Shown piece after piece: positions 38,395 to 53,760 of a stretch of DNA of 64,000 nt. Location of the stretch: NCBI GenBank assembly GCA_016235445.1, contig JACRLB010000047.1, positions 1 through 64,000 on the forward strand, in the 5' to 3' direction. The notes under the pieces are model-generated. The model searched no databases and was not told the origin of the DNA. It worked only from the letters and a program-made list of their open reading frames with translations. The DNA is from Chloroflexota bacterium. GTDB taxonomy: Bacteria > Chloroflexota > Anaerolineae > Anaerolineales > Villigracilaceae. How positions within the stretch are numbered: position 1 is the stretch's first letter; each line of letters opens with the position of its first letter. A program made the translations under genes and the position numbers.

Positions 38395-39450
38395 ATGACA
38401 TCTGGAAAAGTACTCATCATCGGCGGCGGACCTTCGGGGCTTGAATCCGCGCGCTGTGTGGCGGAACTGGGCGGGGAAGCCATACTCATCGAAAAGCGCG
38501 AACGACTTGGCGGCACGCCAGACCGCGAAGGCTACGCCAAACTCACTCATCACTGGCGCGACGCATCCGAAGCGATGGCGGATATGGCGGCGGCGGTGAC
38601 GAGCAACAAAAATGTGGAAGTGAAGTACAACGCCGAAGTGAAGTCAATGACTGGGAGCGCTGGCAACTTCACAGTTGAGATCGAAGCGGGCGGCGCAGTC
38701 GAATCCATCAATGCGGGCGCAGTCATCATCGCCACAGGTTTTCAGCATTTTGATCCGGGCCGCGCAACGCAATATTACAACTACTATTCTTTTCCCGATG
38801 TCATCACGCTCACTGATCTCGAAAAAATGTTGAAGGAACATAATGTCGTGCGCCCGTCGAATGGCGAGACGCCGAAGAAGATCGCGTTCATTCAATGTGT
38901 GGGTTCGCGTGACCGACAAATTGGAAATGAATATTGCTCGAAGGTTTGTTGCGGCATCGCCAGCAAACAAGCCATTGAGTTGCGCGAACAAATTCCCGAT
39001 TCGAAAGTGATGATCTTTTATATCGACATGCGCATGTATGGCTATTGGGAAAATGAAATCTACTGGCCCGCGCAGGAAAAATATAAAGTCAATTATGTGA
39101 AGGGCGTTATCAGCGAAGTGCTCAGAAAGGGCGACAAACTTTTGATCCGCGGCGAAGACACCACCATGAGCCGCCCGATGGAAGTGACGATGGATATGGT
39201 TGTGCTTTCGGTTGGCATGGAACCGAGCGCAGGCACACGCGCAGTGGCGCAACTCATGGGCGTCCAGCAAAATAAATATGGCTTCATCGAAGCGGGCGGC
39301 GCGGGCGGTCTCGACCCCGTTGCCACATCGCAGGAAGGCATCTTCGTTGCGGGCGCCGCGTCTGGTCCGTCTGACCTCGACGACTCCATCGCGCAGGCAG
39401 GTCTCGCCGCCGCGCGCGCAGTCGCATCCGTCCGCAAGGTAATGGCGTAA
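38395..39450 (+). CDS. shdrA: sHdrA-like FAD/iron-sulfur subunit
   Basis: The 351-residue flavoprotein begins MTSGKVLIIGGGPSGLESAR (FAD-binding GxGxxG, residues 10-15) and has the HdrA cysteine cluster as CVGSRD, then YCSKVCC (C168, C181, C185, C186). It lacks the extra ferredoxin-like domains of methanogen HdrA, as is typical for the short sHdrA form. It is the electron-collecting core of the complex. CTGGAGGAAAC precedes the ATG. Near the C-terminus EGIFVAGAASGPSDLDDSIA is the second FAD contact. Confidence 0.88.
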   Translation: MTSGKVLIIGGGPSGLESARCVAELGGEAILIEKRERLGGTPDREGYAKLTHHWRDASEAMADMAAAVTSNKNVEVKYNAEVKSMTGSAGNFTVEIEAGGAVESINAGAVIIATGFQHFDPGRATQYYNYYSFPDVITLTDLEKMLKEHNVVRPSNGETPKKIAFIQCVGSRDRQIGNEYCSKVCCGIASKQAIELREQIPDSKVMIFYIDMRMYGYWENEIYWPAQEKYKVNYVKGVISEVLRKGDKLLIRGEDTTMSRPMEVTMDMVVLSVGMEPSAGTRAVAQLMGVQQNKYGFIEAGGAGGLDPVATSQEGIFVAGAASGPSDLDDSIAQAGLAAARAVASVRKVMA

Positions 39451-39478: not shown

Positions 39479-40255
39479 ATGAATCAACCTCAACAACCAA
39501 GTCACATCCTCAAACAAAGAACGGGACCTGACGATCCCGTTTTGCAAGAGACATTGCAGGATGCGCTCGCGCAAGTTTCATCTGCTGATGTGATTTCCAT
39601 CGCTGACGAATTATCCGCGCGACAAGAACGCATCTTTCTTAATCTGAAAACTGATTCAGTCTCGTTGGCATCCTCCTTCGCTGACGTAGCCGCCGCCGTC
39701 ACTCACACAAAAGCGAACGCGCGCACACTTACCAATTACTTTAATCACGGCGATTACAAATTAATTACCGAATTACTAATTACTGATATGCCAACACCCG
39801 TCCGCGTGGCGGTCTTCGTTGAAAAACTAAACGCACTCGATACCCGCCTTGCCATGGAGCTTGCCACTGGTCTTTTACATTACACCTCTCCCAAAGACCA
39901 CTGGCTGTGGACTCGCTGGCTATGGGACCCAACCACAGCCACAGGCATTCTTCCATTACTTGCAGGCAGTACCCACAACCTGCTCGCAGAAAATTTTGCC
40001 GATGGATATGCAAGAGTCGGTTCGGTCACTGCCATGAGCATGAAATTCGCGGAAGGCACGGATTTGTTTGTTGACGAGTTAACGAGTAACGAGAAACGAG
40101 CGTCGTTTGCCAACAGCGCGTTTCTCGCCTGTGCTTACAGTGTGTATTTGTACGGAACAACGAGTTGGCGATTGAGCCGCGAGTTCAATGGTTTACTCCC
40201 CACTCTGCCAAATATGGCGAGGAAGTTGCTGGGATTGAAAAAGATAGGTAATTAG
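39479..40255 (+). CDS. sHdr-associated hypothetical protein (Hyp/sHdrH position)
   Basis: The 258-residue soluble protein has no cofactor motif that I can see. Its position directly after shdrA and its size suit the conserved hypothetical protein of sHdr clusters, which resembles DUF1641-type proteins (LTNYFNHGDYKLITELLITD, VAVFVEKLNALDTRLAMELA). Bases 39728-39790 within the gene have the AATTACC-type composition of the spacer repeats, so residues about 84-104 may derive from an inserted repeat. There is no clear ribosome binding site, so translation may be coupled to shdrA. Confidence 0.65.
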   Translation: MNQPQQPSHILKQRTGPDDPVLQETLQDALAQVSSADVISIADELSARQERIFLNLKTDSVSLASSFADVAAAVTHTKANARTLTNYFNHGDYKLITELLITDMPTPVRVAVFVEKLNALDTRLAMELATGLLHYTSPKDHWLWTRWLWDPTTATGILPLLAGSTHNLLAENFADGYARVGSVTAMSMKFAEGTDLFVDELTSNEKRASFANSAFLACAYSVYLYGTTSWRLSREFNGLLPTLPNMARKLLGLKKIGN

Positions 40256-40326: not shown

Positions 40327-41610
40327 ATGGCACCTAAGTTTGAGAAAGTAAAAGTAGTCGAAAAAGAACATGCTGTCGTAGACGGCGTGGATATTTCGGG
40401 TCACTGGAATCGCATGTTCGAACAGCGTGTGATCACCGAGTACACGCCCGAACTCATCGAAAAAGTTGCGGATATTCCTGGCGGCGAATCGTTTGCGAAT
40501 TGTTATCAGTGCGCGAAGTGTATCGCCGTCTGCCCAGTGGACATTGTCGGGAATTATGGTCCGCGCAAGTTGTATCGCTACGCCCAAACAGGCATGGACC
40601 TGACCGAAGCCCCCGAACTGTGGCTTTGTACCACCTGCAAAAATTGTCTGCGCGTCTGCCCCAAAGAAGTGGATATGATTCAGATCATGCCCGCTGTGCG
40701 TGAGCAGGCGATTCTTGCGGGAAAATTTGTCCCCGCCGAATTGCAACAGGCATTCGAGAACACCGCCAAATCGGGCAATCCGCTTGGACAGCCCCAGCGC
40801 AAACGCGACGCGTGGATTAAAGACGCGGGCGTGGAAGTTCCTATCATCAAAGACCTCGCCCGCCCCGTGGATGTGCTTTGGTATGTCGGCTCGTATCCGT
40901 CCTATCATCCGCGCGGCATTGACGCGGCTTCGGCGGCGGCGCGCATCTTCTCCGCGCTGGGAATTGATTTTGCGATTCTAGGAAAAGAAGAAAAAGACGA
41001 CGCCGACTCCCAGCGTTTAGCTGGTGAGAAGGGTCTCTTCGAGATGATGACCGAATACAACATCGAGACCTTCAACAAGTACGAATGGAAGGAATTGATG
41101 GTCACGGGTCCGCATGAATTGAACGCCTTCAAGAACGTGTATCCCAAGTACGGCTTTGAGCGCCCTGTGGTGCACTACACCACCTTCCTTGCCCGCTACC
41201 TTGACCAACTCAAACCGTTGCTCAAACATCGCGTAGAAAAGAAAATCACCTATCACGACCCCTGCTATCTCGGCAGGCATAACGGCGAATACGAAGCCCC
41301 GCGCAAATTGCTCGAAGCCATCCCTGGCGTGGAGTTGGTTGAAATGCAGCGCAACCGCGAAAACGGATATTGCTGTGGCGGCGGTGGCGGCGGCATGTGG
41401 ATGGACTCGTTCACAGCCAAGCACACCACCATGCGCCTCTCGGAAAAACGCGCGATGGAAGCCGCGTCCACGGGCGCGGATGTGCTGGCAGTCGCCTGCC
41501 CGTTTGAAGTCTCACGCTTCGCCGACGCGGTCAAGTCCACGGGCAATGAGCATGTGGATGTGCTGGATATCCTTGAATTGCTGGATAAATCAATACGGGG
41601 GGAGCAGTAA
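40327..41610 (+). CDS. shdrB3: HdrC-HdrB fusion protein, sHdrB3-like
   Basis: The 427-residue protein (ATG 40327 with GGAG upstream; the longer frame is repeat DNA) begins with an HdrC-like module holding two cubane motifs, CYQCAKCIAVCP (C59-C69) and CTTCKNCLRVCP (C101-C111). An HdrB-like module follows with one intact CCG motif near the end (YHDPCYLGRHNGEYEAP, YCCGGGGGGMWMD). Such HdrD-like fusions replace the separate sHdrC2-B2 pair in the sHdr variant that also encodes EtfAB, exactly as seen here. It is likely to link the sHdr core to EtfAB. Confidence 0.82.
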   Translation: MAPKFEKVKVVEKEHAVVDGVDISGHWNRMFEQRVITEYTPELIEKVADIPGGESFANCYQCAKCIAVCPVDIVGNYGPRKLYRYAQTGMDLTEAPELWLCTTCKNCLRVCPKEVDMIQIMPAVREQAILAGKFVPAELQQAFENTAKSGNPLGQPQRKRDAWIKDAGVEVPIIKDLARPVDVLWYVGSYPSYHPRGIDAASAAARIFSALGIDFAILGKEEKDDADSQRLAGEKGLFEMMTEYNIETFNKYEWKELMVTGPHELNAFKNVYPKYGFERPVVHYTTFLARYLDQLKPLLKHRVEKKITYHDPCYLGRHNGEYEAPRKLLEAIPGVELVEMQRNRENGYCCGGGGGGMWMDSFTAKHTTMRLSEKRAMEAASTGADVLAVACPFEVSRFADAVKSTGNEHVDVLDILELLDKSIRGEQ

Positions 41611-41700: not shown

Positions 41701-42456
41701 ATGAACATCGTAGTAGCAATAAAACACATCCCCAGCATCGCCGATGACCTGCCCGTCAAAGGCAATAACGTGGATTTTGACTCGGTGGATTTCGTGCTCA
41801 ACGAATTCGATGAGCAGTCCATCGAGCAGGCTGTGCTGGTGAAGGAAGCCGTCGGTGGGACGGTGACCGTGGTCGGGGTGGACATGATCGGGGAGTTGGA
41901 CGCGGTTCTTCATCTCGCGTTGGCGAAGGGCGCGGATAAGGCTGTCAAAATTACGGGCGATGACCCTGCCGCGGATTCACATCAGCAAGCCAAGTGGTTG
42001 GCGGAAGCGATCAAAGGCATGTCGGCGGATATGGTTTTCGCGGGCGTGCAGGCGTCGAATGATCTCGACGGTCAGATCGGACCGATGATCGCGGCGCATC
42101 TCGACATGCCGTACATCGGCGGAGTCAGTTCAGTGGAGGTCTCTGACCACACAGCAACGGTGAATAAAGAATTCGCGGGTGGAATTGGCGGGAAATATTC
42201 TGTCAGTTTGCCGATGGTTGTCGGTGTGCAGGCCGCGTCCAAGCCGCCGCGCTATGCACCGATCAGCAAAGTCCGCCAGGTCGCGCAGACCGCGACGATT
42301 GAGAAGGTTTCTCCGTCAGGTGATGCGACTTCGGGATTGGCTTTCAAGAAGATGGCTCCACCCGTTGTGACAGGTCACGCCGAGATGATCGAAGGTTCGT
42401 CGAAGGATGTGGCGAAGAAGATCGTGGAGTTGTTGAAGAGCAAGGGGCTTGCGTAA
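41701..42456 (+). CDS. etfB: Electron transfer flavoprotein beta subunit
   Basis: The 251-residue protein begins MNIVVAIKHIPSIADDLPVK and contains VFAGVQASNDLDGQIGPMIA and LPMVVGVQAASKPPRYAPIS, standard EtfB features around the AMP/FAD site. Together with EtfA it would accept electrons from the sHdr complex in the cytoplasm. It sits between the HdrD-like fusion and the membrane EMO-like gene, so its job here is inside the sulfur pathway rather than fatty acid oxidation. CAGGAGCC precedes the ATG. Confidence 0.92.
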   Translation: MNIVVAIKHIPSIADDLPVKGNNVDFDSVDFVLNEFDEQSIEQAVLVKEAVGGTVTVVGVDMIGELDAVLHLALAKGADKAVKITGDDPAADSHQQAKWLAEAIKGMSADMVFAGVQASNDLDGQIGPMIAAHLDMPYIGGVSSVEVSDHTATVNKEFAGGIGGKYSVSLPMVVGVQAASKPPRYAPISKVRQVAQTATIEKVSPSGDATSGLAFKKMAPPVVTGHAEMIEGSSKDVAKKIVELLKSKGLA

Positions 42457-42541: not shown

Positions 42542-43480
42542 ATGAGCAATGACATTCTCGTAATCACCGAACACATGGACGGAAAATTTTCCGATGTGTC
42601 GTTTGAAATGGTTGGAAAAGCCAAAGAGTTGGCATCCGCTTTGGGAGGAAGAGCAGTCGCCGTCGTAGTCGGAGGCGGGGTTTCGTCCAATGTCTTCGCG
42701 TCTGATTCAACAATCCACATTGATGATGCGGCGCTGAGTCAATTCAATCCCGAAGCATACGGAAAAGTCATCGAAGCGTTGGTCAAGGAAAAATCTCCGC
42801 GGCTGGTGATGTTTGGCTGGACTGCCACAGGCATGGACTTAGCCGCGTGGCTTTCGGCGAAACTTGGCGTGCCGTGCGCGGCGTATGTGAAAAACATCGG
42901 CGCGGATTTGACGATGAGTTGCCAGGCGTACGGCGGCAAAATGAGCGCGGACGTTTCACCCGAAGGCGACATGGCGATTGCGGCTTGTCTCGCAGGCTCG
43001 TTCCCTGTGGAAGCGGGGCAAGGCTCGACGGCGGCAACATCCATTGCTTCGCCCGTTGCGCTGGATGGGTTGAAAATAAAATTCGTCGAAGCGATTAAAC
43101 CCGCGGGCGGCGATGTGGATATTACCGCGCAAGCGAAGTTGGTTTCGATTGGACGCGGAATTGGAAGCAAGGATAATGTTGAACTCGCGGAAGAGTTGGC
43201 GGGCAAACTTGGCGCGACGGTTTCATCATCCCGCCCCGTTGTGGATGCGGGCTGGTTGCCGCGCACAAGGCAGGTTGGCAAGTCGGGACTCAAGGTCAAG
43301 CCGAAGTTGTATCTCATGCTCGGTATCTCTGGCGCGCCTGAACATCTCGAAGGCATGAAGAGCGCGGAGTTGATCATCGCCATCAACACCGACAAGAAAG
43401 CGCCGATCTTCAACGTGGCGCATTACGGCGCGACGGCGGATCTGTTTGAAGTGGCTGAGGCGATGCTTGAATTACTGTAA
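42542..43480 (+). CDS. etfA: Electron transfer flavoprotein alpha subunit
   Basis: The 312-residue protein (ATG 42542, ribosome binding site GAAGGAGCAAAC) has the complete C-terminal FAD domain: SSRPVVDAGWLPRTRQVGKS, VKPKLYLMLGISGAPEHLEG and AINTDKKAPIFNVAHYGATA. It forms the Etf heterodimer with the preceding gene product. The membrane EMO-like oxidoreductase encoded next is its expected electron acceptor. Confidence 0.92.
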   Translation: MSNDILVITEHMDGKFSDVSFEMVGKAKELASALGGRAVAVVVGGGVSSNVFASDSTIHIDDAALSQFNPEAYGKVIEALVKEKSPRLVMFGWTATGMDLAAWLSAKLGVPCAAYVKNIGADLTMSCQAYGGKMSADVSPEGDMAIAACLAGSFPVEAGQGSTAATSIASPVALDGLKIKFVEAIKPAGGDVDITAQAKLVSIGRGIGSKDNVELAEELAGKLGATVSSSRPVVDAGWLPRTRQVGKSGLKVKPKLYLMLGISGAPEHLEGMKSAELIIAINTDKKAPIFNVAHYGATADLFEVAEAMLELL

Positions 43481-43554: not shown

Positions 43555-45621
43555 TTGCTCACACTGATTGAAAAAATCATATTCATTTTGCTGGCGTTGG
43601 TTGCGGCGGGATTCACAGTTCATGGATTCAAAACCATCATCGACTCGGTGCGGAAGGGACGCCCTGCGCCTGAGTTGAAAAATATTCCTGCGAGTCTGAT
43701 CAAAGCGGGCGTGATGATTCTGTTTCAGCAGACCATCTTCAAGGCGCGTAAAGTGTTGAGCGCGATTCATCTTGGGTTGTTCTTCGGTCTCATCACCTAT
43801 GCCTTCGTCAATCTCGTGGATGTGCTCGAAGGATTCATCCCAGGCTTTGAGTTGATTTATGGCGGCAAACATCTTGCATTTGCGTTTCCGCCCGTCATCG
43901 TCAACGCTTTCAATCTCATCGCCGATGTGATGAGCGGCGCGTTGTTGTTCAGCATCACCGTTTTTCTTGTGCGGCGTTTCATCGTCAAGGATAAACGGCT
44001 CGAATATCGCGATAATGTTTTGCTGAATCCAAAAATCAAGGCGGGCGGGCAGGCAAGAGATTCGCTCACCGTGGGCGTGTTCGTCATCATGCACGTTGCC
44101 GCGCGTTTGCTTGGTCAGGCATATCGCCTTGGCGATGGCGCGGACCCGTTCATGCCGATTGCGAGTTTTCTCAACGGCATGTTTGGCGTTTCGCAAACGG
44201 GCGTTCACGTTGCGTGGTGGGTCAGCATTTGTTGGGTACTTTATATCTTGCCCTACATCACGCGCAGTAAGCATACGCACTTCACGATTGGTCCCGTCAA
44301 TCTCGGGCTTGCCAAACAAAATCCGCGCGGACTGCTCGACCCTGCCGCGAAGGTTGACCCTGGCGCAAAATTTTTGCACGACCTTTCCTGGAAACGCGTT
44401 TTGGATTCTTATGCCTGCGTGCAATGCAATCGCTGTCAGGATGTCTGCCCCATGAATTTCGCCGAAGGCGCGCCGCTTTCCCCTTCGGCATTGGAAGTGA
44501 ACAAGCGTTACCTCATTAAAGAAGCGACCTTCGGCTCTCACCCCGACCGATTGCTGATTCCGCTTACTGAGACAGTCATCTCCGCTGAGGCAGTTTGGTC
44601 CTGCACAACTTGTCATGCGTGCGTCAGTATTTGTCCCGTTGGCAATGAGCCGATGGCAGATATCATTGATATTCGCCGCCGCCTATTAATTGACGGCGCG
44701 GAAATTGACAGCGGCGTGCAGAACGCTTTGCAGTCCCTCGCCACCAACGGCAACTGGATGAGCAAAGGTAAACGTCTGCGCGGACGCTGGGCGAAGGAGA
44801 TGGAGTTCCCCGTCAAGAACGCGACCGAAGAGCCCGTGGAGCATTTGTGGTTCGTCGGCGATACGGCTTCGTTCGATGAGCGCGTCATTCCGAATACCAA
44901 AATGGTTGCGCGTATTTTCAACCAGGGCGGCTTGGATTTTGGAATCATGTACCAAAGCGAATCCAACTCTGGCAATGACGTGCGCCGCGTGGGGGAGGAA
45001 GGTCTGTTCGAGCAGTTGGTCGAGCAGAATATCGAAGCGTTTGGCAAGGCGCAATTCAAGCAAATCGTCACCACCGACCCGCACTCGTTCAACACGCTCA
45101 AGAACGAGTATCCGCAATTCGGCGGGAAGTTTGAGGTCAAGCATTACACGGTGACTTTGCTCAAGTTGATAGAAGAAGGCAAGTTGACGGTTAAGAATAA
45201 ACTGTCGAATTACAAAGTCACCTTCCACGACCCGTGCTATCTCGGACGCTACAACGGCGGATTTACCGCTCCGCGCAAGTTGCTGGAACTGCTCGGTGTG
45301 GAATTCGTCGAAATGCCGCGCAACTGCGAAAACTCATTCTGCTGTGGCGCAGGCGGCGGTCAGATATGGATGGGCAAAGTTGCGCCAGGGGAACGTCCCG
45401 CGGAGAATCGAATCAAGGAGGCGTTGACCACATTTGAGTCAAACACAGGCGACAAGACTCAACTCTTCATCGTCACCTGCCCGAAGGATATGGTCATGTA
45501 TTCGGACGCGGTCAAGACGACGGGCAGTGAAGGCAAGATCGAAGTCCGCGACATTATTCAACTGGTGGCGGAAGCTGTCGGGTTGGAAATGCCGCTCGAA
45601 GCGGAAGCAGTTGTCAGTTAA
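43555..45621 (+). CDS. emo: EMO-type membrane Etf:quinone oxidoreductase (HdrDE-like fusion)
   Basis: The 688-residue protein starts at TTG 43555, supported by GGGAGGG four bases upstream. Residues 1-245 form five or six membrane helices of the NarI/HdrE-like di-haem type (histidines in SAIHLGLFFG, VIMHVAARLL and TGVHVAWWVS). Two cubane clusters follow (CVQCNRCQDVCP near 287, CTTCHACVSICP near 350), then a CCG module (FHDPCYLGRYNGGFTAPRKL, FCCGAGGGQIWMG near 597). This is the layout of EMO proteins that pass electrons from EtfAB to menaquinone. It gives the sHdr pathway a direct outlet to the respiratory chain. Confidence 0.85.
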   Translation: MLTLIEKIIFILLALVAAGFTVHGFKTIIDSVRKGRPAPELKNIPASLIKAGVMILFQQTIFKARKVLSAIHLGLFFGLITYAFVNLVDVLEGFIPGFELIYGGKHLAFAFPPVIVNAFNLIADVMSGALLFSITVFLVRRFIVKDKRLEYRDNVLLNPKIKAGGQARDSLTVGVFVIMHVAARLLGQAYRLGDGADPFMPIASFLNGMFGVSQTGVHVAWWVSICWVLYILPYITRSKHTHFTIGPVNLGLAKQNPRGLLDPAAKVDPGAKFLHDLSWKRVLDSYACVQCNRCQDVCPMNFAEGAPLSPSALEVNKRYLIKEATFGSHPDRLLIPLTETVISAEAVWSCTTCHACVSICPVGNEPMADIIDIRRRLLIDGAEIDSGVQNALQSLATNGNWMSKGKRLRGRWAKEMEFPVKNATEEPVEHLWFVGDTASFDERVIPNTKMVARIFNQGGLDFGIMYQSESNSGNDVRRVGEEGLFEQLVEQNIEAFGKAQFKQIVTTDPHSFNTLKNEYPQFGGKFEVKHYTVTLLKLIEEGKLTVKNKLSNYKVTFHDPCYLGRYNGGFTAPRKLLELLGVEFVEMPRNCENSFCCGAGGGQIWMGKVAPGERPAENRIKEALTTFESNTGDKTQLFIVTCPKDMVMYSDAVKTTGSEGKIEVRDIIQLVAEAVGLEMPLEAEAVVS

Positions 45622-45631
45622 GAAAGAAGCG

Positions 45632-45940
45632 ATGTTCAAGTGTCCGTATTGCGAGTTTAGCGGTAAACGTTCAGAAGTCCACAATCATCTGGCGGAGAGT
45701 CATCCAGATACCTTGGGCGTGCGCGTGGACGAGTTTACGGGTCATACGTTTTTCATTGTGACCTGCCCCGTGTGCGGCGATAGTTATGAGCAGGTTACGA
45801 AAAAGGCAAGACGTGACCCAGGTTTTGTGCAAGAATATGAACATGAAATTCGTATGGTTGTTTTTGATTTACTTCTGTATCACTTGCAAGGTGAACACGG
45901 AGAACCCTCACCCCTTCCCTCTCCCGAGGGGAGAGGGTGA
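45632..45940 (+). CDS. Small zinc-binding protein of unknown function
   Basis: The 102-residue protein begins MFKCPYCEFSGKRSEVHNHL with a CxxC and histidines at 17, 19 and 24 (C2H2-like finger), followed by a second CxxC in TCPVCGDSYEQV (C45, C48). The start 45632 lies 10 bases after the EMO stop. The last ten residues (PSPLPSPEGRG) are encoded by a common palindromic repeat, so the native C-terminus probably ended earlier. Its place between the electron outlet and the lbpA genes suggests a role in the pathway, but none can be named. Confidence 0.6.
   Translation: MFKCPYCEFSGKRSEVHNHLAESHPDTLGVRVDEFTGHTFFIVTCPVCGDSYEQVTKKARRDPGFVQEYEHEIRMVVFDLLLYHLQGEHGEPSPLPSPEGRG
45917..45937. repeat. CCCTCTCCC palindrome
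   Basis: CCCTCTCCC and GGGAGAGGG flank three bases. It is a very common bacterial dispersed hairpin, here overlapping the 3' end of the zinc-protein gene. Confidence 0.6.
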
Positions 45941-45955
45941 AAAAAGGAGAATAAC

Positions 45956-46393
45956 ATGGCAACAGTTCGTGGATGTAATATTCCTGAAGACCGCTACTAC
46001 TGGGTCGAGAAACACGCGTGGGCGCGTCCCGAAGCAGACGGCACGGTGACAATTGGAATTACCGATGTGGCGCAGCATTTGGCGCGAGGGATTCTGACCG
46101 CCACGCCGAAAGATGTGGGGCGCGCGGTGCAAAAAGGCAAAGGCGCGGGGACGTTGGAAAGCGGCAAGTGGGTGGGCCCTGTCACGTCTCCGATTACGGG
46201 TGAGATCGTGGAAGTGAACGAATCCGTGAAAGCAAAGCCTGCACTGCTCAATGAAGACCCGTATGGCGCGGGCTGGTTTGTGCGCGTCAAGCCCGCGGAT
46301 TGGGCTGGCGAAAGCGCGGCATTGTTGCAAGGGGAAACGGCGGTGGCGGCGTATCAGAAATTTATGGAAGAGCAGGGCTTAAATTTTGAATGA
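45956..46393 (+). CDS. lbpA1: Lipoate-binding protein LbpA (sHdr-type), paralogue 1
   Basis: The 145-residue GcvH-like protein carries the lipoylation site K71 in GTLESGKWVGPVTSPITGEI. The ESGKWVGP form is typical of LbpA proteins dedicated to sHdr rather than glycine cleavage (which usually show ESVKAAS or similar). LbpA holds the sulfur substrate on its lipoyl arm during oxidation by sHdr. AAAAAAGGAGAATAAC is a strong ribosome binding site. No glycine-cleavage genes are nearby, supporting the sulfur role. Confidence 0.88.
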   Translation: MATVRGCNIPEDRYYWVEKHAWARPEADGTVTIGITDVAQHLARGILTATPKDVGRAVQKGKGAGTLESGKWVGPVTSPITGEIVEVNESVKAKPALLNEDPYGAGWFVRVKPADWAGESAALLQGETAVAAYQKFMEEQGLNFE

Positions 46394-46483
46394 TGAATGA
46401 GGAATGCAGAATTATTTTTCTGCATAGAGGCATAACTTCTATTCCCTAATTCTGCATTCTCTATTCTGCATTCTGCATTTCCC
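46394..46483. repeat. ATGCAGAAT-family palindromic spacer
   Basis: GGAATGCAGAATTATTTTTC is followed by CTGCATAGAGG, ATTCTGCATTC and TATTCTGCATTCTGCATT. It shares the core with the repeat at 36223-36282. Confidence 0.65.
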
Positions 46484-46930
46484 ATGATCTTCCACGCCTG
46501 TGACATCCCCGAAGACCTGACTTACGACATCGAACGCGACGTTTGGATTCGCTTCGATGGGGATGTGGCGACTCTCGGCATGACCGACGTGGCGCAGACC
46601 CGTTGCGGCAAGATTGCGGCGATCAGTTTTCGGGATGTCGGGAAGAAGGTGGCGCAAGGAAAGACACTGGCGACGATTGAATCTGCCAAGTGGGTGGGAC
46701 CCTTCCCCGCGCCGTTTTCGTGCGAGATCATCGAGACGAATGAAGCGGGTTTTGCGCGCGATATTTTGATTACGAACAAAGACCCGTATGGAACTGGCTG
46801 GCTGGTAAAAGTAAGACCGACAAATTTTGAGAATGAACGCGGTCATCTGGTGACGGGTGACGAAGCGGTTGAGAAGTATAAAGAGAGAATTAGAGAATTG
46901 AAGGTTAATTGTTTGAGGTGTATTGACTGA
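46484..46930 (+). CDS. lbpA2: Lipoate-binding protein LbpA, paralogue 2
   Basis: The 148-residue protein has the lipoyl lysine K69 in TIESAKWVGPFPAPFSCEII and the same domain plan as its neighbour: an opening HACDIPEDLTYDIERDVWIR and a closing DPYGTGWLVKVRPTNFENER. It has two cysteines in the extreme C-terminus (VNCLRCID) that the other two lack. The ATG at 46484 follows repeat DNA and shows no good ribosome binding site, so expression may be lower than that of paralogue 1. Confidence 0.85.
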   Translation: MIFHACDIPEDLTYDIERDVWIRFDGDVATLGMTDVAQTRCGKIAAISFRDVGKKVAQGKTLATIESAKWVGPFPAPFSCEIIETNEAGFARDILITNKDPYGTGWLVKVRPTNFENERGHLVTGDEAVEKYKERIRELKVNCLRCID

Positions 46931-46943
46931 CGACCATGATTGA

Positions 46944-47065
46944 GCGGGGCTGAAGCCGCCTGCTCAGTGCATGGAAGCCCCTTCGGGGCTGGCGCACCGA
47001 GTCGGCTTTTAGCCGACTTTCACGAACTGAGGCAGGGCTTCAGCCCGCCGAATCGTTGATTGCGA
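46944..47065. repeat. GC-rich palindromic spacer between lbpA2 and lbpA3
   Basis: GCGGGGCTGAAGCCGCCTG near the left edge is roughly complementary to CAGGGCTTCAGCCCGCC at the right. In between lie the hairpins GAAGCCCCTTCGGGGCT and GTCGGCTTTTAGCCGAC. It looks like a composite dispersed repeat. Confidence 0.65.
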
Positions 47066-47102
47066 AATCGCTTTTGCCGAACAAATATTTAGGAGAGTTT
47101 TT

Positions 47103-47549
47103 ATGACAACATCCAGCGCTTACGAAATCCCCGCAGACCGCGCGTATGACCGCGAACATCACATGTGGGCGCAAGTTGATTCCACCAGCGGGCAAGTGAC
47201 CATTGGCATTGACACGCTCGGGCTGGCGTCGCTGGGCGATCTGGCGTATGTCACGTTGCAGGCAGTTGGAATGCCTGTCAAACGCGGCGAATCGATGGGG
47301 ACGCTGGAAGCGGCGAAGATGACGGGCGATTTGATCGCTCCTGTCAGCGGAACGATTGTGGCGCGGAACGATGAGACGGTGAGCAACCCTGGCTTGGTGA
47401 ATCAATCGCCATATGGCGATGGCTGGATGATGGTCATCAAGCCGAGTGATTGGGAAAATGAATCCGTGCAGTTGGTTTCTGGCGAAGGTCTGCCCGCGTG
47501 GGTTGACTCTGAAGTCAAACGGTATCGCGGTCAAGGTTGGATCGATTGA
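47103..47549 (+). CDS. lbpA3: Lipoate-binding GcvH-like protein, paralogue 3
   Basis: The 148-residue protein has its lipoylation site at K72 in GTLEAAKMTGDLIAPVSGTI, which differs from the ESxKWVGP form of the first two paralogues and is nearer to biotinyl/lipoyl domains of GcvH type. The overall fold markers are kept (QVTIGIDTLGLASLGDLAYV, SPYGDGWMMVIKPSDWENES). It may carry a different intermediate or be recognised by a different ligase. AGGAGAGTTTTT precedes the ATG. Confidence 0.82.
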   Translation: MTTSSAYEIPADRAYDREHHMWAQVDSTSGQVTIGIDTLGLASLGDLAYVTLQAVGMPVKRGESMGTLEAAKMTGDLIAPVSGTIVARNDETVSNPGLVNQSPYGDGWMMVIKPSDWENESVQLVSGEGLPAWVDSEVKRYRGQGWID

Positions 47550-47562
47550 TGACACAAGATTT

Positions 47563-47636
47563 CACCACGGAGAACACGGAGTTCACAGAGATTTTTAAAA
47601 TGGTTTTCTCCGTGCTCTCTGTGTGCTCTGTGGTAG
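47563..47636. repeat. CCACGGAGAACACGGAG dispersed inverted repeat
   Basis: CACCACGGAGAACACGGAGT faces CTCCGTGCTCTCTGTG and CTCTGTGGT. This type is widespread in environmental genomes. It fills the spacer before the ligase gene. Confidence 0.65.
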
Positions 47637-47646
47637 AGGCTCTTGA

Positions 47647-48798
47647 ATGATGACCTGGCGATTAATCACAGACGATAACGTTTCCCCCTCCTTCGGTCTC
47701 GCGGCGGATGAGACGCTGGCGCAACGCGTTGGGATGAATCAATCTCAACCCACATTACGTCTTTACACCTATCGTTCGCATTGCGCGCTGGTGGGGCGTT
47801 TTCAAAATATTGAAAATGAAATTCGCGTTGGGTATTGCCGCGAAAATGGAATCACGCTCAATCGTCGTCCCACGGGCGGCGGCGCGATCATCATGGGCGC
47901 GGATCAACTCGGCGTGGCGCTCACCATCCCTGGGCGTGGCGCCCTTCGGCTAGGCGCTCAGGGTGATAACTATGCACAGGCTCGTGAAATGATGGGCAAT
48001 TTCTCCGAAGGTCTCGTGCGCGGATTGAATCAACTCGGCGTGCAGGCAAAGTTCCGCCGCAAGAATGATATTGAAGTGAACGGCAAAAAACTCGTTGGGC
48101 TGGGCGTGTATCGCGCGCCGTCGGGTGGGTTGCTCTTCCATGCCAGCATGTTGGTGGATTTGGATATTGAATTGATGTTGCGCGTGCTCAACACGCCGTT
48201 CGAGAAAATTTCAGATAAAGAGATTGATACCGTTGCAGGAAGAATCACAACCGTGAGGCGCGAAACCGAATCAAATATTTCTGTGGATGAAGTGCGCCGC
48301 CTCATTGCCGACGGGTTTGCTGGTGCGTTCAACCTCAGCCTCCTCCACGCTGACGGTTTTACCCGCGACGAACTTGACGACATTGCCAAACTCGAAAACG
48401 AAAAATATCTGACGGAAGATTGGGTCTGCCAAACCACGTCCGTGCCTGATAGCAACGGCTCGGCGAAAATCAAAACGGAGGCGGGGCTGATCGATGTCAG
48501 CGTGACGATGGCGGGCGCGATGATCAAAGCGGCATTCATCGGCGGTGATTTTTTCGCGGCGGAAAACGCCGTGGCTGATTTGGAAGCGTCGTTGAGATGG
48601 CACGCGAGTCAACCAGAGAAGGTTGCGGCGACGATCGGGAAAATCTTCCAGAGTAGGGAAAGCCAGTTTAACGGAATCAAGCCCGAGGTTATGATCGAGG
48701 CGGTGACGAAGGCAGTGAGTCGCGCCCGCGTGGTGGAGAGTCAAATGCGGGCGGATCCGTACGGATGTTATGTCAACCCTGGAGGCGGACATGCCTGA
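47647..48798 (+). CDS. Lipoate-protein ligase, long form (sLpl-like)
   Basis: The 383-residue protein has the LplA catalytic fold: LRLYTYRSHCALVGRFQNIE, the RRPTGGGAIIM lipoyl-AMP loop and KFRRKNDIEVNGKKLVGLGV with the catalytic lysine region. A C-terminal accessory domain (about residues 255-345) resembles LplB. In sHdr organisms a dedicated ligase attaches lipoate or octanoate to LbpA; position right after three lbpA genes fits that. The ATG overlap with the next radical SAM gene (48791-48798) couples both. Confidence 0.85.
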   Translation: MMTWRLITDDNVSPSFGLAADETLAQRVGMNQSQPTLRLYTYRSHCALVGRFQNIENEIRVGYCRENGITLNRRPTGGGAIIMGADQLGVALTIPGRGALRLGAQGDNYAQAREMMGNFSEGLVRGLNQLGVQAKFRRKNDIEVNGKKLVGLGVYRAPSGGLLFHASMLVDLDIELMLRVLNTPFEKISDKEIDTVAGRITTVRRETESNISVDEVRRLIADGFAGAFNLSLLHADGFTRDELDDIAKLENEKYLTEDWVCQTTSVPDSNGSAKIKTEAGLIDVSVTMAGAMIKAAFIGGDFFAAENAVADLEASLRWHASQPEKVAATIGKIFQSRESQFNGIKPEVMIEAVTKAVSRARVVESQMRADPYGCYVNPGGGHA

Positions 48799-49759
48799 GT
48801 TGATTCAAATCATCGAGCCGTTGAATTTGACGACGGAGTGTTTGGAAATCCGCCGCGCGAATTTTGGCGACGCGATCACCTTCCATGCGCCTGGCTTGCG
48901 AAAATATAAAACGGATGAATTTGATTCGCAGAATGCGATTGAGTTTGTTTCGATCAGCGTGACGGGGACGGCGTGCGCGTTGAGTTGCGAACATTGCAAG
49001 ACGAATGTGTTGCACGGCATGGCGGATTTGCGGCAACATGACGGCTCTTTATTTGATTTGTGCGCTGACCTTGCTTCGAAAGGCGCGCGCGGCGTGTTGA
49101 TCTCTGGCGGAAGCGACAAGCGCGGACGTGTGCCGCTGTTGCCGCACATCCATGATATGAAGCGCGTGCGAAATGAACTTGGGCTTGCCATGCGAATCCA
49201 CACGGGCTTGCCCGATGAAGAGACCTGCGCCGCGCTCGGCGAAGTGGAGATCGACGGCGCAATGATTGACATCATCGGTCATCGCGATACGATGCGCGAG
49301 GTTTATCATCTCGATGCCGACCCCGAAGATTATGAAAATTCTTTGGCGTGGCTGGAGAAATATAAAGTTCCCACCATCCCGCATATTATTTTGGGATTGC
49401 ATTTTGGAAAGATGCTCGGCGAAGAATATGCGCTGGAAATGATTGCGCGACACCCGCCGAAGGTGATGGTGCTGGTGGTGCTCATGTCGCTGACGGGCAC
49501 GCCGATGATGGGAGTGAAGCCGCCATCGTTGGAGGAGATCGGCGCGTTTTTCGAGAAGGCTCGCAAGGCCCTGCCATCCACGCCTGTGATGCTGGGCTGT
49601 GCGCGTCCGCTCGGAAATTTGAAAGTTGAGATTGACCGTCTTGCGGTGGATGCGGGTTTGAATGGCATTGCCTACCCCGCGAATGGAATCGTGGAGTATG
49701 CGCGGCAGAATGGTTTGCGCCCGCAGTTTATCAATGCGTGTTGTGGTGTGACATGGTGA
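48791..49759 (+). CDS. Radical SAM protein, lipoyl synthase type (LipS1/LipS2-like)
   Basis: From ATG 48791 (GGAGGCGGAC just before it) the product is 322 residues. The radical SAM cluster motif is CALSCEHCKTN (CxxxCxxC) near residue 60. The C-terminus INACCGVTW carries a further cysteine pair that could ligate an auxiliary cluster. In the sLpl-LipS1/S2 route, two radical SAM enzymes together insert the two sulfur atoms into protein-bound octanoate. I cannot assign which of the two this is. Coupling to the ligase gene supports the lipoate role. Confidence 0.8.
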   Translation: MPELIQIIEPLNLTTECLEIRRANFGDAITFHAPGLRKYKTDEFDSQNAIEFVSISVTGTACALSCEHCKTNVLHGMADLRQHDGSLFDLCADLASKGARGVLISGGSDKRGRVPLLPHIHDMKRVRNELGLAMRIHTGLPDEETCAALGEVEIDGAMIDIIGHRDTMREVYHLDADPEDYENSLAWLEKYKVPTIPHIILGLHFGKMLGEEYALEMIARHPPKVMVLVVLMSLTGTPMMGVKPPSLEEIGAFFEKARKALPSTPVMLGCARPLGNLKVEIDRLAVDAGLNGIAYPANGIVEYARQNGLRPQFINACCGVTW

Positions 49760-49764
49760 AAAAA

Positions 49765-49920
49765 CTTTTTTACCACAAAGGGCACGAAGTACACAAAGGT
49801 GGGTTGAGTGATGGTTGTGGTTCTTTGTTTACGACTTTCACGAAAGATGGTCGAAAAGAAGTCGTCACATTGAGCCGCGCATTAAACCTTCGTGACCTTA
49901 GTGTCCTTCGTGGTTAATTT
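49765..49920. repeat. ACCACAAAGGGCACGAAG dispersed inverted repeat
   Basis: TTACCACAAAGGGCACGAAG near the left is complementary in pattern to CTTAGTGTCCTTCGTGGTTA at the right edge. The interior has no open frame. Confidence 0.65.
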
Positions 49921-49934
49921 CTTTAGGAGAATTC

Positions 49935-51071
49935 ATGGCAAAAGTAATCGTTCCGTCCGACCTGCAAGATGAGCAATTCAACATCAGCCCAGACTACGTC
50001 CGCATCAGCATTGCGGCGGCGATCGAGCTTGGGTTGAAGCCTGGGCGAATCAATCGTTGCAGTTGCAATTGCATCAACCTTCTGCAAAATTATCCCGAAG
50101 GCTGTTATGCCAACTGCACCTACTGCGGACTCGCCCGCGAGCGCCCAGGCACGCCCGAAGAGAATACGTTTATCCGCGTGGCGTGGCCGCTGTATCCAAC
50201 GGATTTGGTTGCCGAAAAAATTGCCGAGCATGAGGAAAAACATGGCGTGGGACGTGTGTGCATCGCGCAAGTTCAGGATCACCGCGCCTATGACGATCTG
50301 GTGGAAATGATCCGCCGCGTGCGCCGCCCTGCGCCTGCTGTGCCAATCTCGGCATTGGTCAGCGCGACGACGCTTAATGAAGAGCGTTTGCATGTCATCA
50401 AAGAAGCGGGCGCGGACATTATCGGCGTGGGTCTGGATGCAGTGACGGAGGAAGTCTTCGATGAGACCCGCGGCAAAAAAGCCAGAGGCCCGCACAACTG
50501 GGAGTATCACTGGAAGGTTATCCGCTCTGCCAGCGAAATCTATGGGCCGATGAAAGTCAACTGTCACATCATCGTTGGGCTTGGCGAAACAGACCGCGAA
50601 CTGGTGGATATGTTCTTCCAGTTGAAAGAGGAGAAAATTGCGGGCTACCTGTTCGCGTTCAATCCCGAACCTGGTACGGTCATGCAGGACGTATCCCGTT
50701 CTCCCATCCATCGCATGAGACGGATTCAACTGGTGAAGCATCTGATCGAAAATCAGGAAATGCCGCGAAAGGCTTTGTCGTTCGACGAGATGGGCAGTAT
50801 TTCTCGACTCGACGCGCCCGAAACAATGGTGGATGTTGCCGTCAATACGGGGTTGCCTTTCATGACGAATGGCTGTCCTGACCGTTCAGGGGAAGTGGCG
50901 TGTAATCGTCCCTACGGCTCCTACCGCCCTGGCGAGGAATACCGCGATTATCCGTTCGTTCCCAACATGGACGATCTCGTCATCATTCGCCAGCAAATGA
51001 GACTTGAAGAAGTCTGGGCGAATCTCAATTCTCCAATGACAAGTTACTCTCTGCCTGTCATCGCCGCTTGA
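49935..51071 (+). CDS. Radical SAM protein, second lipoyl synthase-type subunit (LipS1/LipS2-like)
   Basis: The 378-residue protein has an unusual cysteine-rich block, INRCSCNCINLLQNYPEGCY followed by ANCTYCGLARERPGTP. The radical SAM motif is CYANCTYC, and the preceding CSCNC suggests an auxiliary cluster, as in sulfur-inserting enzymes (LipA, BioB). Later segments VGLDAVTEEVFDETRG and MKVNCHIIVGLGETDRELV are typical of biotin-synthase-like radical SAM barrels. TTTAGGAGAATTC gives a strong start. With the preceding radical SAM protein it forms the predicted lipoate-assembly pair. Confidence 0.82.
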   Translation: MAKVIVPSDLQDEQFNISPDYVRISIAAAIELGLKPGRINRCSCNCINLLQNYPEGCYANCTYCGLARERPGTPEENTFIRVAWPLYPTDLVAEKIAEHEEKHGVGRVCIAQVQDHRAYDDLVEMIRRVRRPAPAVPISALVSATTLNEERLHVIKEAGADIIGVGLDAVTEEVFDETRGKKARGPHNWEYHWKVIRSASEIYGPMKVNCHIIVGLGETDRELVDMFFQLKEEKIAGYLFAFNPEPGTVMQDVSRSPIHRMRRIQLVKHLIENQEMPRKALSFDEMGSISRLDAPETMVDVAVNTGLPFMTNGCPDRSGEVACNRPYGSYRPGEEYRDYPFVPNMDDLVIIRQQMRLEEVWANLNSPMTSYSLPVIAA

Positions 51072-51105: not shown

Positions 51106-52113
51106 ATGAACCCCATCCGCCTCCTCAACCTGGGAAGCATCCCGCCGTTGCAAACACAATCGGTGTATCACATGCTGGCGGAACGCATGAGCGTGGACGA
51201 GCCAGACACCATCATCCTCTGCCGACCAAACGCGCCATACCTTTGCCTTGGGTATCACCAGGTTTTTGAAAACACCTTCGACCCAGAGGAATGTCAACGG
51301 CGTGGACTGCCCATCCTGCGGCGCAGGCTTGGCGGCGGCGCAACGTATCTCGACGGGAATCAAATTTTCTACCAGTGTATTTTTCATCACAGCCGAATGC
51401 CTGCCATGCTCAAAGATATTTACGCAACCGCTCTTGCCGCGCCAGTCAACACCTTGAAAAAACTTGGACTCAACGCCGAACTGCGCGACACGAACGAAAT
51501 CGAAGTGGACGGAAAGCGCATCGCTGGCACGGGCGGCGGACGAATCGGCGAAGCCTGCGTGGTGGTCGGCAACCTGCTTTTTGATTTTGACTTTGAAGCG
51601 ATGACATCCGTGTGGCGCACGCCATCATCCTCTTTTCGTTCACTCGCAGAGAAGGCGCTGTGTCAACAGCTAGTGACCTTGAACCAATTGGGAATTTCCG
51701 CTTCGCTGGATGAAGCGGCGGACATGCTGGTTGAGTCATTTGAAAATTCATTTCATCGTCCACTGCAACCCGATACCCTTACTTCGGATGAATTGGAAAT
51801 CGCGCGGCAAACGGCAAAAGAACTTGTTTCAGATGAATTCCTTGCACTGCACAAAGAAAACAACAATCGTGACCCCATGCATTTCTTGAAGATTTCTGCG
51901 CGCGCATTTATTCATGCAGACGAGGCCCAGATGAGCGGCTGGGCTGTGCGCGGAAGTTTTTGGGTCAGCCAGGATATGATCCAGACCGCGAAACTTGAAT
52001 CCAACCCCATGCGCAATTGGCAGCAAGTTGAAGAAGAATTGCGCGGCGTCCCCTTCAAGAAATGGCAGGAGCAAATCCATGCTCACTTTTCCAACGAGAC
52101 CATCTTATCGTAA
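51106..52113 (+). CDS. Second lipoate-protein ligase A family protein
   Basis: The 335-residue protein matches LplA/LipM-type transferases: TIILCRPNAPYLCLGYHQVF, RRRLGGGATYLDGNQIFYQC and ELRDTNEIEVDGKRIAGTGG. It is clearly different from the ligase at 47647 (GGGATYL instead of GGGAIIM; no LplB-like tail). It could be an octanoyl/lipoyl amidotransferase or be specific for one LbpA paralogue. It begins 34 bases after the radical SAM gene and ends 9 bases before the soeBC-like gene. Confidence 0.8.
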   Translation: MNPIRLLNLGSIPPLQTQSVYHMLAERMSVDEPDTIILCRPNAPYLCLGYHQVFENTFDPEECQRRGLPILRRRLGGGATYLDGNQIFYQCIFHHSRMPAMLKDIYATALAAPVNTLKKLGLNAELRDTNEIEVDGKRIAGTGGGRIGEACVVVGNLLFDFDFEAMTSVWRTPSSSFRSLAEKALCQQLVTLNQLGISASLDEAADMLVESFENSFHRPLQPDTLTSDELEIARQTAKELVSDEFLALHKENNNRDPMHFLKISARAFIHADEAQMSGWAVRGSFWVSQDMIQTAKLESNPMRNWQQVEEELRGVPFKKWQEQIHAHFSNETILS

Positions 52114-52122
52114 GGACAGTTC

Positions 52123-53760
52123 ATGACCAATTATGGATTTCTGATTGACCAAAGCAAATGCATCGGATGTCACGCCTGTTCCACCGCGTGCAAGTCCGAG
52201 AATCAAGTGCCAATCGGCGTGAATCGCACATGGGTCAAGTATGTTGAAACTGGCGCGTACCCCGATGTGCGCCGCCACTTTCAAGTGACGCGTTGTAACC
52301 ATTGCGCCAACCCGCCCTGCGTGCGCATTTGCCCCGTCACCGCCATGTATCAGCGCGACGATGGCATCGTCGAGTTCGACCCGTCCATCTGCATCGGGTG
52401 CAAATCCTGTATGCAAGCCTGTCCGTATGATTCAATTTATCTCGACCCTGAAACCAACACCGCCGCGAAATGCACCTTCTGCGCCCATCGTGTGGATGTG
52501 GGACTCGAACCCGCCTGCGTTGTCGTCTGCCCTGAACATGCCATTCTCGCTGGCGACTTGAACAACCCCGCTTCAGAAATAAGCCGCAAACTGGTCACTT
52601 CGAAAGTGACAGTTCGCAAGCCTGAGCAGGGCACGGGACCCAAGCTTTTCTACATCAACGGCAATGACTGGTCGCTTCATCCCTCCGCCGCGCAGACGCA
52701 TGACTCGTATGTGTGGGCAGACAAAGTCACCGAGCAAAACGTCTCTGCCTACGAACGCGGCGCGATTGCCTTGCCCGTTTTGAAATCCAAATCAGGGACG
52801 CCCATCCGCACCCCGCAGGAACAAGGAATGCCGCTCAACGGTCCCATCCAAATTGGCGGGCGCGTTGCCGAACAAATGGTTCAAACCACGTACAACGCCC
52901 AGCACAAAATCAACTGGCATTGGGAACTGCCTTCGTATCTTGTCACGAAAAGTATCGCAGGCGGAATGTTCATGCTCCTCAGCCTCGGCGCAGGACTTGG
53001 CATGTTCACCTTCGACTCTGCGACTTTCCTCGCCGCAGGCTTCACTGCAATGGTCTTCATGCTCATCACGACCATCCTGCTCATCAAGGATTTGTCACAG
53101 CCCAAACGCTTCTTGAACATTCTGCTTCGTCCGCAATGGAAATCATGGGTGGCACGCGGCGCGTACATTATGGTCACATTCACGGCAGTCGCTGGGTTGT
53201 GGTGGTTGCTCGAAGGCGCGGCTCAGGTGGGGATACTGCCTCTCGAAACGGTAGCAACTGTCCGCCCGTTTGCGGCGTGGATCGTCTTCCCGTTCGCTTT
53301 GGGAGTTGTCATCTACACCGCCTTCCTGCTTGGTCAAGCTGAAGGACGCGATATGTGGCAGAATAATCTGCTGCCGTTCCAATTGTTTGCTCAATCCATG
53401 ATGGTCGCAAGCGGAGTCTTCTTCGCCTTGGGCGCTTTCGTGAATTTCTCTGCCGACCTGCAATCGCTTCTTGCGGTTCTCTTCCCCGCCAGCATCGCGG
53501 TCAATTTACTGCTGACCTTCGCGGGCAAACTCAACTCCTTCCCAACCGATACCGCCATGCTCGCCTCGCGCGAAATGACCCACGGCAAATTCCGCAATCA
53601 TTATTGGTGGGGCGGCATTGCGTTGGGACACATCGTTCCATTGGCGTTGTTATTTGCTTTCAGCGCTTCTGCACCCGTCGCTGTTGCGTGTTCCGTTGTT
53701 GGCTTGTTCTTTTATGAATTTGCCTTCGTGATGGCTCCGCAGCATATTCCGAATTCGTAG
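52123..53760 (+). CDS. soeBC: SoeB-SoeC-like fusion: four-cluster ferredoxin plus DmsC-type membrane anchor
   Basis: The 545-residue fusion starts with a four-cluster DmsB-like module: CIGCHACSTACK (C13-C23), CNHCANPPCVRICP, CIGCKSCMQACP and CTFCAHRVDVGLEPACVVVCP. About 75 linker residues follow, and then eight membrane helices (residues 275-540) of the DmsC type. It should carry electrons between the molybdenum subunit encoded next and the quinone pool. Fusion of these two subunits is uncommon; SoeB and SoeC are normally separate proteins. The absence of a Tat signal on the catalytic partner suggests a cytoplasmic orientation as in SoeABC. Confidence 0.85.
   Translation: MTNYGFLIDQSKCIGCHACSTACKSENQVPIGVNRTWVKYVETGAYPDVRRHFQVTRCNHCANPPCVRICPVTAMYQRDDGIVEFDPSICIGCKSCMQACPYDSIYLDPETNTAAKCTFCAHRVDVGLEPACVVVCPEHAILAGDLNNPASEISRKLVTSKVTVRKPEQGTGPKLFYINGNDWSLHPSAAQTHDSYVWADKVTEQNVSAYERGAIALPVLKSKSGTPIRTPQEQGMPLNGPIQIGGRVAEQMVQTTYNAQHKINWHWELPSYLVTKSIAGGMFMLLSLGAGLGMFTFDSATFLAAGFTAMVFMLITTILLIKDLSQPKRFLNILLRPQWKSWVARGAYIMVTFTAVAGLWWLLEGAAQVGILPLETVATVRPFAAWIVFPFALGVVIYTAFLLGQAEGRDMWQNNLLPFQLFAQSMMVASGVFFALGAFVNFSADLQSLLAVLFPASIAVNLLLTFAGKLNSFPTDTAMLASREMTHGKFRNHYWWGGIALGHIVPLALLFAFSASAPVAVACSVVGLFFYEFAFVMAPQHIPNS

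Follow-up and report, generated by a model that had tools for sequence, protein, structure and literature searches.

A putative lipoyl-assembly cassette with a lysine-less ligase relative at the ligase position of a group III sHdr operon in Chloroflexota

Gene organization of the sHdr locus

The window, that is, the whole stretch of DNA analyzed, comprises the initial 64 kb of contig C39 in genome G000 (4.13 Mb); genomes, contigs and other loci are designated below with the prefixes G, C and L. ORFs and a Pfam/NCBIfam profile search reveal a row of genes, all on the + strand, that extends from a DsrE2-like gene starting at 35197 to a molybdopterin oxidoreductase gene ending at 56802 (Table 1). 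The common strand and tight spacing are compatible with one operon, but do not prove it. The gaps are 90 bases between lbpA_a and lbpA_b, 172 bases between lbpA_b and lbpA_c, and 97 bases between lbpA_c and slpl(AB), and the frames of lbpA_a and lbpA_b overlap in the relative G515. A scan for promoters for separate expression of lbpA_c found 6 sites where 4.1 ± 1.8 are expected. By eye, the intergenic regions 46931-47102, 47550-47646 and 49760-49934, in or near the cassette formed by lbpA_c, slpl(AB), lipS1, lipS2 and lig2, resemble inverted repeats of a dispersed type.

The name HdrC1 was assigned by gene order and is presumptive, and the membrane Hdr-like protein probably corresponds to EMO. 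The Pfam scan gave no match for the hypothetical protein at 39479-40255. The HdrB1-like, HdrB3-like and zinc-finger-like proteins were scanned as ORF slices that begin within a few codons of the likely ATG (for the HdrB1-like protein, one codon past the chosen ATG), without effect on the domain matches. The LipS1 score is just below, and the LipS2 score clearly below, the curated NCBIfam cut-off.

The window cluster combines Hdr-like genes, EtfBA and three LbpA, as group III sHdr clusters do, and the locus is a group III (EtfAB-linked) sHdr sulfur-oxidation operon. According to excerpts of PMC6067878, the number of lbpA genes per sHdr cluster is at least one, mostly two and rarely three. It is two or three in the etfBA-containing clusters of group III, and the presence of two kinds is called unexplained there. 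The excerpted part of PMC6776052 describes a 19-gene cluster of Thermomicrobium roseum (Chloroflexi; trd_0160-0142) with three lbpA genes, hdrABC and etfAB, so that three LbpA in an EtfAB-linked cluster are already in print. As far as these excerpts go, the window resembles the published clusters in its Hdr-like, EtfBA and DsrE-like proteins and in its number of LbpA.

Table 1. Genes of the sHdr operon in the window
Feature	Position	Strand	Match or remark
DsrE2-like protein	35197-35721	+	Pfam DrsE_2 1.4e-48
DsrE-like sulfurtransferase	35825-36223	+	Pfam DsrE 1.9e-17
HdrC1-like Fe-S protein	36301-37008	+	Fer4_8 1.8e-07
HdrB1-like protein	37085-38308	+	CCG 6.5e-08, scan from 37088; start chosen, ORF opens 37073
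sHdrA-like flavoprotein	38395-39450	+	Pyr_redox_2 5e-15
Hypothetical protein of sHdr operon	39479-40255	+	same place in relatives
HdrB3/HdrD-like protein	40327-41610	+	CCG 4.1e-19, Fer4_8 1.5e-09; scan from 40318, start chosen
EtfB	41701-42456	+	ETF 1.8e-24
EtfA	42542-43480	+	ETF_alpha 1.6e-30
Membrane Hdr-like protein, probable ETF:quinone partner	43555-45621	+	CCG 6.1e-17, Fer4_8 5.1e-11
Small zinc-finger-like protein, precedes lbpA_a	45632-45940	+	zf-Di19 2e-06, scan from 45617; same place in relatives
LbpA_a, GcvH-like carrier, ESGKWVGP, N-terminal Cys only	45956-46393	+	Pfam GCV_H 1.4e-35
LbpA_b, GcvH-like carrier, ESAKWVGP, N- and C-terminal Cys	46484-46930	+	Pfam GCV_H 1.6e-31
LbpA_c, GcvH-like, EAAKMTGD, no Cys, first gene of cassette	47103-47549	+	Pfam GCV_H 1.4e-30
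sLpl(AB)-type lipoate:protein ligase, K148 = family lysine	47647-48798	+	catalytic domain and Lip_prot_lig_C
LipS1, lipoyl synthase component	48770-49759	+	NF053742 228.2 bits, cut-off 230
LipS2, lipoyl synthase component	49935-51071	+	NF053743 208.1 bits, cut-off 270
Lig2, LplA-family, Arg138 replaces family lysine	51106-52113	+	Pfam: catalytic domain only
Fe-S/NrfD fusion protein	52123-53760	+	Fer4_11 8.1e-26, NrfD 2e-15
Molybdopterin oxidoreductase	53848-56802	+	Molybdopterin 3.6e-21

The three carrier proteins

An earlier reading of the locus made from the sequence only had reported three different LbpA-type proteins in a row. All three ORFs are present on the + strand, each matching Pfam GCV_H, and their lipoylation contexts read exactly as it had given them. 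The matches cover the GCV_H profile nearly end to end, and their E values indicate that the three carriers are not chance matches. The sequences of LbpA_a, LbpA_b and LbpA_c keep the lipoyl lysine of GcvH-like proteins. The two cysteines of sulfur LbpAs are both present in LbpA_b, whereas only the N-terminal one is present in LbpA_a and neither in LbpA_c, so that the pair is not common to the three. The loss of the C-terminal cysteine (window 46360-46393) is common to the LbpA_a family rows seen, including those of ordinary operons, and LbpA_b contains CxxC near its C-terminus.

A carrier tree was constructed from 96 rows, which take in only some of the GCV_H hits of the genome profile search, after 23 of the 119 GCV_H rows (near-duplicates and a short row from an archaeon) had been dropped. 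In this tree, the LbpA_c rows form one clade (100/99) and the LbpA_b rows another (100/98). LbpA_c lies outside the clade of GcvH (99/98), and also outside the sulfur LbpA clade (100/99), which unites types a, b, a' and d with the LbpA of Acidithiobacillus plasmids. The fourth GCV_H protein of G000, which is encoded on another contig (C22), falls in the GcvH clade. A clade of LbpA_c and LbpA_b is rejected by the AU test (p 5.4e-05), so LbpA_c is not a copy of LbpA_b. The distinct clade and this rejection indicate that LbpA_c is a separate lineage and not a local duplicate. Trees in which LbpA_c is held together with GcvH (p 0.099), placed inside the sulfur LbpAs (p 0.199) or placed with LipS-linked proteins (p 0.122) stand in the same test. 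The earlier view of the third protein as divergent is upheld; this protein is no copy of LbpA_b and belongs with special genes for lipoylation. A grouping of this protein with ordinary GcvH, which had been named as evidence to the contrary, is not seen in the tree but is permitted by the AU test.

LbpA_a, LbpA_b and LbpA_c are not three equivalent carriers. It could be argued that the paralogues are interchangeable and that the extra copy only raises the carrier dose, because clusters commonly encode several LbpA, and the excerpted part of PMC6067878 considers that the genes may be duplicated to produce the protein more efficiently. This explanation is highly improbable, because the three proteins belong to separate lineages, with the union of LbpA_c and LbpA_b rejected, and because their cysteine patterns differ.

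A further LbpA, type d (L149, L152 and L154), is characterized by ES[AG]KWLG and, at the C-terminus, by the motif DDCxHCEGYE; in G182 and G384 its gene lies approximately 10 kb from the nearby pair of GCV_H genes. The third LbpA of T. roseum may be of this type, as a guess. Plasmids of Acidithiobacillus ferrooxidans encode a lone LbpA (L139:787-1233 and L140:13992-14438), which is annotated as glycine cleavage system protein H, is placed in the sulfur LbpA clade and has hemerythrin, thioredoxin and Hdr-related genes as neighbours.

Position and distribution of the cassette

At ten Chloroflexota loci (L124, L125, L126, L127, L132, L133, L134, L136, L137 and L138), referred to here as ordinary operons, LbpA_a and LbpA_b are encoded with one ligase, and the visible stretch contains no gene for LbpA_c, LipS1 or LipS2. 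The ligase gene is located approximately 2.2 to 2.4 kb downstream of lbpA_b at L132 and L134, and close by at the other eight loci. At L125, which is from the genus of the window, and L138, which is from its family, the single ligase gene is located directly between lbpA_b and the FeS-NrfD/MopB genes. In the window and at L037, L038 and L224 (with weak Fe-S/NrfD and MopB matches in L224), this position contains lbpA_c, slpl(AB), lipS1, lipS2 and lig2 in this order. The same order is seen in part, up to contig ends, at L035, L040/L041, L049/L223 with L222, L051/L226, L227, L036, L042 and L225. Judged by gene order, the cassette occupies the place of the ordinary ligase in the window operon. The window thus differs from the published group III clusters in that its third carrier is of type c and accompanies a LipS1/S2 cassette; type c is absent from the ten ordinary loci.

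The sequence-only reading had also suggested that the different carriers serve different sulfur substrates. This suggestion finds no direct evidence, and LbpA_a and LbpA_b occur as a pair in ordinary operons, where LbpA_c is missing. A related possibility is that LbpA_c is a third working carrier, for redox or sulfur groups, that serves another partner such as the Fe-S/NrfD-molybdopterin enzyme. LbpA_c is under purifying selection (dN/dS 0.132 and 0.111) and keeps the lipoyl lysine, and its distant relatives are the sole carriers of loci beside Hdr-like or FAD-oxidase genes, as this possibility would have it. However, the ordinary operons L125 and L138 have the same Fe-S/NrfD and MopB genes and no LbpA_c, the protein is without both cysteines of the sulfur LbpAs, and it accompanies LipS1/S2 in differing settings. 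A role as a third working carrier is for these reasons improbable.

The cassette is located apart from any lbpA_a/lbpA_b operon at five loci (L121 in G086, L123 in G119, L039 in G006, L055 in G770 and L221 in G714). L053 is left out of this count, because its contig starts just before lbpA_c. A gene for a [NiFe]-hydrogenase large subunit is located near the cassette at three of these five loci (L121, L123 and L039). The context of lbpA_c switches at least twice on the LbpA_c tree, in which 12 of the 13 LbpA_c rows were given a state and L053 was left out. An LbpA_a and LbpA_b pair is encoded elsewhere in the genome in G119 and G770, and G086 contains two GCV_H genes and an ordinary-type ligase gene on another contig. 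The hydrogenase operon near the cassette has its own DsrE, an LbpA of type a' (ESSK[FY]VGP, with both cysteines) and an HdrD-like (CCG) subunit. Hydrogenase-linked LbpA of type a' is found at L039:1-6047, L123:2838-8961, L131:691-7299 and L121:16460-18199 with L155 (by Pfam at L039 and L131).

Co-occurrence was analyzed for a non-random set of 34 genomes picked for cluster or ligase hits. Thirteen of them have a LipS2 score above 165 bits, and the remaining 21 do not exceed 31.6 bits. A type c gene lies alongside LipS2 in 11 of the 13 genomes, with a distant c-type in G298 and G339, and the contigs of the last two (G424 and G035) break off within the cassette. An order-wide survey of 400 genomes found Lig2 orthologues (E<=1e-62) in 14, LbpA_c (E<1e-40) in 13 and both in 11. 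In the five unmatched genomes (Lig2 only in G424, G035 and G465; LbpA_c only in G476 and G038), the contigs all end in the cassette. LbpA_a/LbpA_b or LbpA_a' is also present in 15 of the 16 genomes with a Chloroflexota-type LbpA_c (G000, G031, G034, G763, G020, G039, G052, G476, G515, G038, G086, G119, G770, G006 and G714), which rules out, as a general claim, that LbpA_c is independent of any sulfur carrier. The exception is G771 (L053), a genome of short contigs in which LbpA_c is the only GCV_H protein found.

LipA scores above the cut-off in 31 of the 34 genomes, including G000. The presence of a LipM-like gene (C11:52540-53352) and LipA (C23:47675-48526) in G000 indicates a second lipoate route beside the cassette.

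The two ligase-family proteins and the proposed lipoyl transfer

The two LplA-family genes reported in the sequence-only reading are both present in the cluster, with lipS1 and lipS2 between them. A ligase tree was constructed from 85 rows, after 35 of the 120 LplA-family rows (near copies and fragments) had been dropped. In this tree, the sLpl(AB) proteins of the cassette form one clade (100/99) among the LipS-linked ligases. The best named records for sLpl(AB) of the window are from Anaerolineales/Chloroflexi assemblies, such as a Hainich bin at 91% identity. Lig2 forms another clade (100/100), inside a clade of 43 rows (100/99) that holds the single ligases of the ordinary operons. The LplA-family hits of G000 are three, sLpl(AB), Lig2 and the LipM-like gene product, with no ordinary ligase among them.

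The column of the family lysine contains Arg in all 17 cassette copies of Lig2 and Lys in all 107 other proteins, when all 120 LplA-family rows and four later ones are counted (12/12 and 73/73 for the tree rows alone). It also contains Lys in the five solved ligases that were aligned, of seven matched. Lig2 of the window, with Arg138, therefore lacks the conserved lysine of lipoate:protein ligases. A shift of the alignment, with the lysine one residue earlier in GKRIAG, does not account for this result, because five of the 17 Lig2 proteins (L042, L053, L123, L221 and L224) have no Lys at either position. Relatives of Lig2 at seven distant two-ligase loci keep the lysine, indicating that the arginine is a trait of the Chloroflexota cassette. 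According to the excerpted part of PMC9307952, one lysine of LplA does both adenylation and transfer, and Lys135 is one half of the catalytic dyad of LipB; by our reading of the alignments, this lysine probably corresponds to the arginine column of Lig2. Lig2 is unlikely, from its sequence, to be a normal ATP-dependent ligase. It is not a decaying gene either, because it is under purifying selection, with dN/dS values of 0.193 and 0.128 in two pairs, the third pair being saturated.

Lig2 was also compared with other members of the family. The cysteine in GEACVVVG of Lig2 presumably fits the LipB position, by eye. A LipB-like cysteine transferase is nevertheless rejected, because this position contains A, S, T, R or G in relatives. 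No cysteine is invariant in Lig2. Lig2 is not LipM, because the PVCFEVPS loop is absent and GGG is present in place of GGR; the LipM cysteine column contains Cys in all seven LipM-like rows (loop shown for five) and not in Lig2. Pfam detects only the catalytic domain in Lig2, without a C-terminal accessory domain. Along most of its length, the structure model (pLDDT 90.7) can be superimposed on E. coli LplA (1x2g_A; 323 aligned columns) and bovine lipoyltransferase (2e5a; 344 columns), at a high rmsd of approximately 12 Å, and we read this model as suggesting the same domains as in two-domain ligases, placed differently.

A ligase specific to the third paralogue had been proposed earlier. In that form the proposal finds no support, because LbpA_c travels with both ligase-family genes and LipS1/S2 as one cassette. 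One ligase per carrier is likewise disfavored, because both ligase-family genes are present even at seven distant loci where the visible stretch holds just one GCV_H gene (L050, L064, L076, L085, L086, L129 and L135; these genomes contain further GCV_H genes elsewhere). In Thioalkalivibrio, moreover, a single sLpl modifies both LbpA1 and LbpA2, according to excerpts of PMC6067878. A variant is one modifying branch per carrier class, in which Lig2 would modify LbpA_a and LbpA_b, its arginine being tolerated, and sLpl(AB) with LipS1/S2 would modify LbpA_c. This variant accords with the position of Lig2 in the same clade as the ligase that alone accompanies LbpA_a and LbpA_b in ordinary operons, with the absence of an ordinary ligase among the three LplA-family hits of G000, and with the adjacency of lbpA_c and slpl(AB). 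It is unlikely, because Lig2 accompanies LbpA_c also away from LbpA_a/LbpA_b, is kept in G086 and G119 despite an ordinary-type ligase, lacks the family lysine in every cassette copy and has a distant counterpart at the seven one-carrier loci, and because one sLpl suffices for two LbpA in Thioalkalivibrio.

The reading that we tentatively prefer, at a little short of an even chance for all its parts together, is that the usual single LbpA ligase is replaced in this operon by a self-contained lipoyl-assembly cassette. LbpA_c would be mainly an assembly acceptor, which sLpl(AB) loads with free octanoate, and LipS2 and LipS1 would insert the two sulfurs on octanoyl-LbpA_c. The finished lipoyl group would then be handed from LbpA_c to LbpA_a and LbpA_b, the putative sulfur carriers that serve the Hdr-like complex, and Lig2 is a candidate for this hand-over or for client presentation. 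The roles of LbpA_c as an acceptor and of Lig2 in a relay are what we infer from these comparisons. LipL-type transfer presumably proceeds over a cysteine thioester, and Lig2 has no invariant cysteine, which speaks against a hand-over by Lig2; its arginine might also still permit ligation. The AU test permits each of the three deep placements of LbpA_c given above. The seven distant two-ligase loci show one carrier and no client in the locus, so that the carrier there may itself be a working one, and LbpA_c of G771 has no other GCV_H protein beside it in the short contigs found.

A relay has a precedent in LIPT1/LipL, which is ligase-derived and moves lipoyl groups from the H protein, according to excerpts of PMC7253636. 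The cassette resembles this GcvH-LipM/LipL or GCSH-LIPT1 relay in that it pairs a GcvH-like protein with a family member that derives from ligases and possibly does not activate lipoate, whereas Lig2 is without the LipM-type loop and an invariant cysteine, and the relay is putative here. The sLpl(AB)-LipS1/S2 pathway of lipoate assembly is described in PMC10332631, excerpts of which also mention GcvH-restricted ligases that depend on an additional amidotransferase or ligase, and the possibility of amidotransferases yet unknown. The window encodes sLpl(AB), LipS1 and LipS2 together, the two LipS scores being below cut-off, and as in that pathway their genes adjoin lbpA genes in an sHdr cluster, but the cassette also includes lig2, a further LplA-family gene, and encodes a GcvH-like protein devoid of cysteine. 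The excerpts of PMC10332631 contain no mention of a second ligase of the Lig2 kind or of a hub LbpA. According to the same excerpts, proteobacterial sLpl(AB) and LipS1/S2 modify LbpA directly without a hub, and the service of LbpA1 and LbpA2 by one ligase (PMC6067878, in part) similarly weighs against a relay. Because of this direct modification and the missing thioester cysteine, the mechanism is proposed with reserve, whereas sequence gives good support for the cassette itself, for where it sits, for its presence outside the operon at other loci and for the Lys-to-Arg change. As far as the open-licence literature shows, what departs from the known systems is the cassette with its lysine-less ligase relative, whereas two or three LbpA per sHdr cluster are already published.

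A wider form of the preferred reading, possible but rather unlikely, is that the cassette serves as a lipoyl-relay module that is portable and stands outside central metabolism. In this form, sLpl(AB) and LipS1/S2 would charge LbpA_c as a hub, and Lig2 would pass the lipoyl group to the sulfur carrier at hand, either LbpA_a/LbpA_b of sHdr or LbpA_a' of the hydrogenase operon. Lig2 would also lend itself to testing why the family needs its lysine.

At L050, a contig titled Syntrophaceae, an sLpl(AB) gene (L050:3961-5097) is nested in the Chloroflexota cassette clade (100/98), and its neighbours encode a Lig2 relative, a GcvH-like protein, a FAD oxidase and a CCG protein. This placement reflects either gene transfer or a mis-binned contig.
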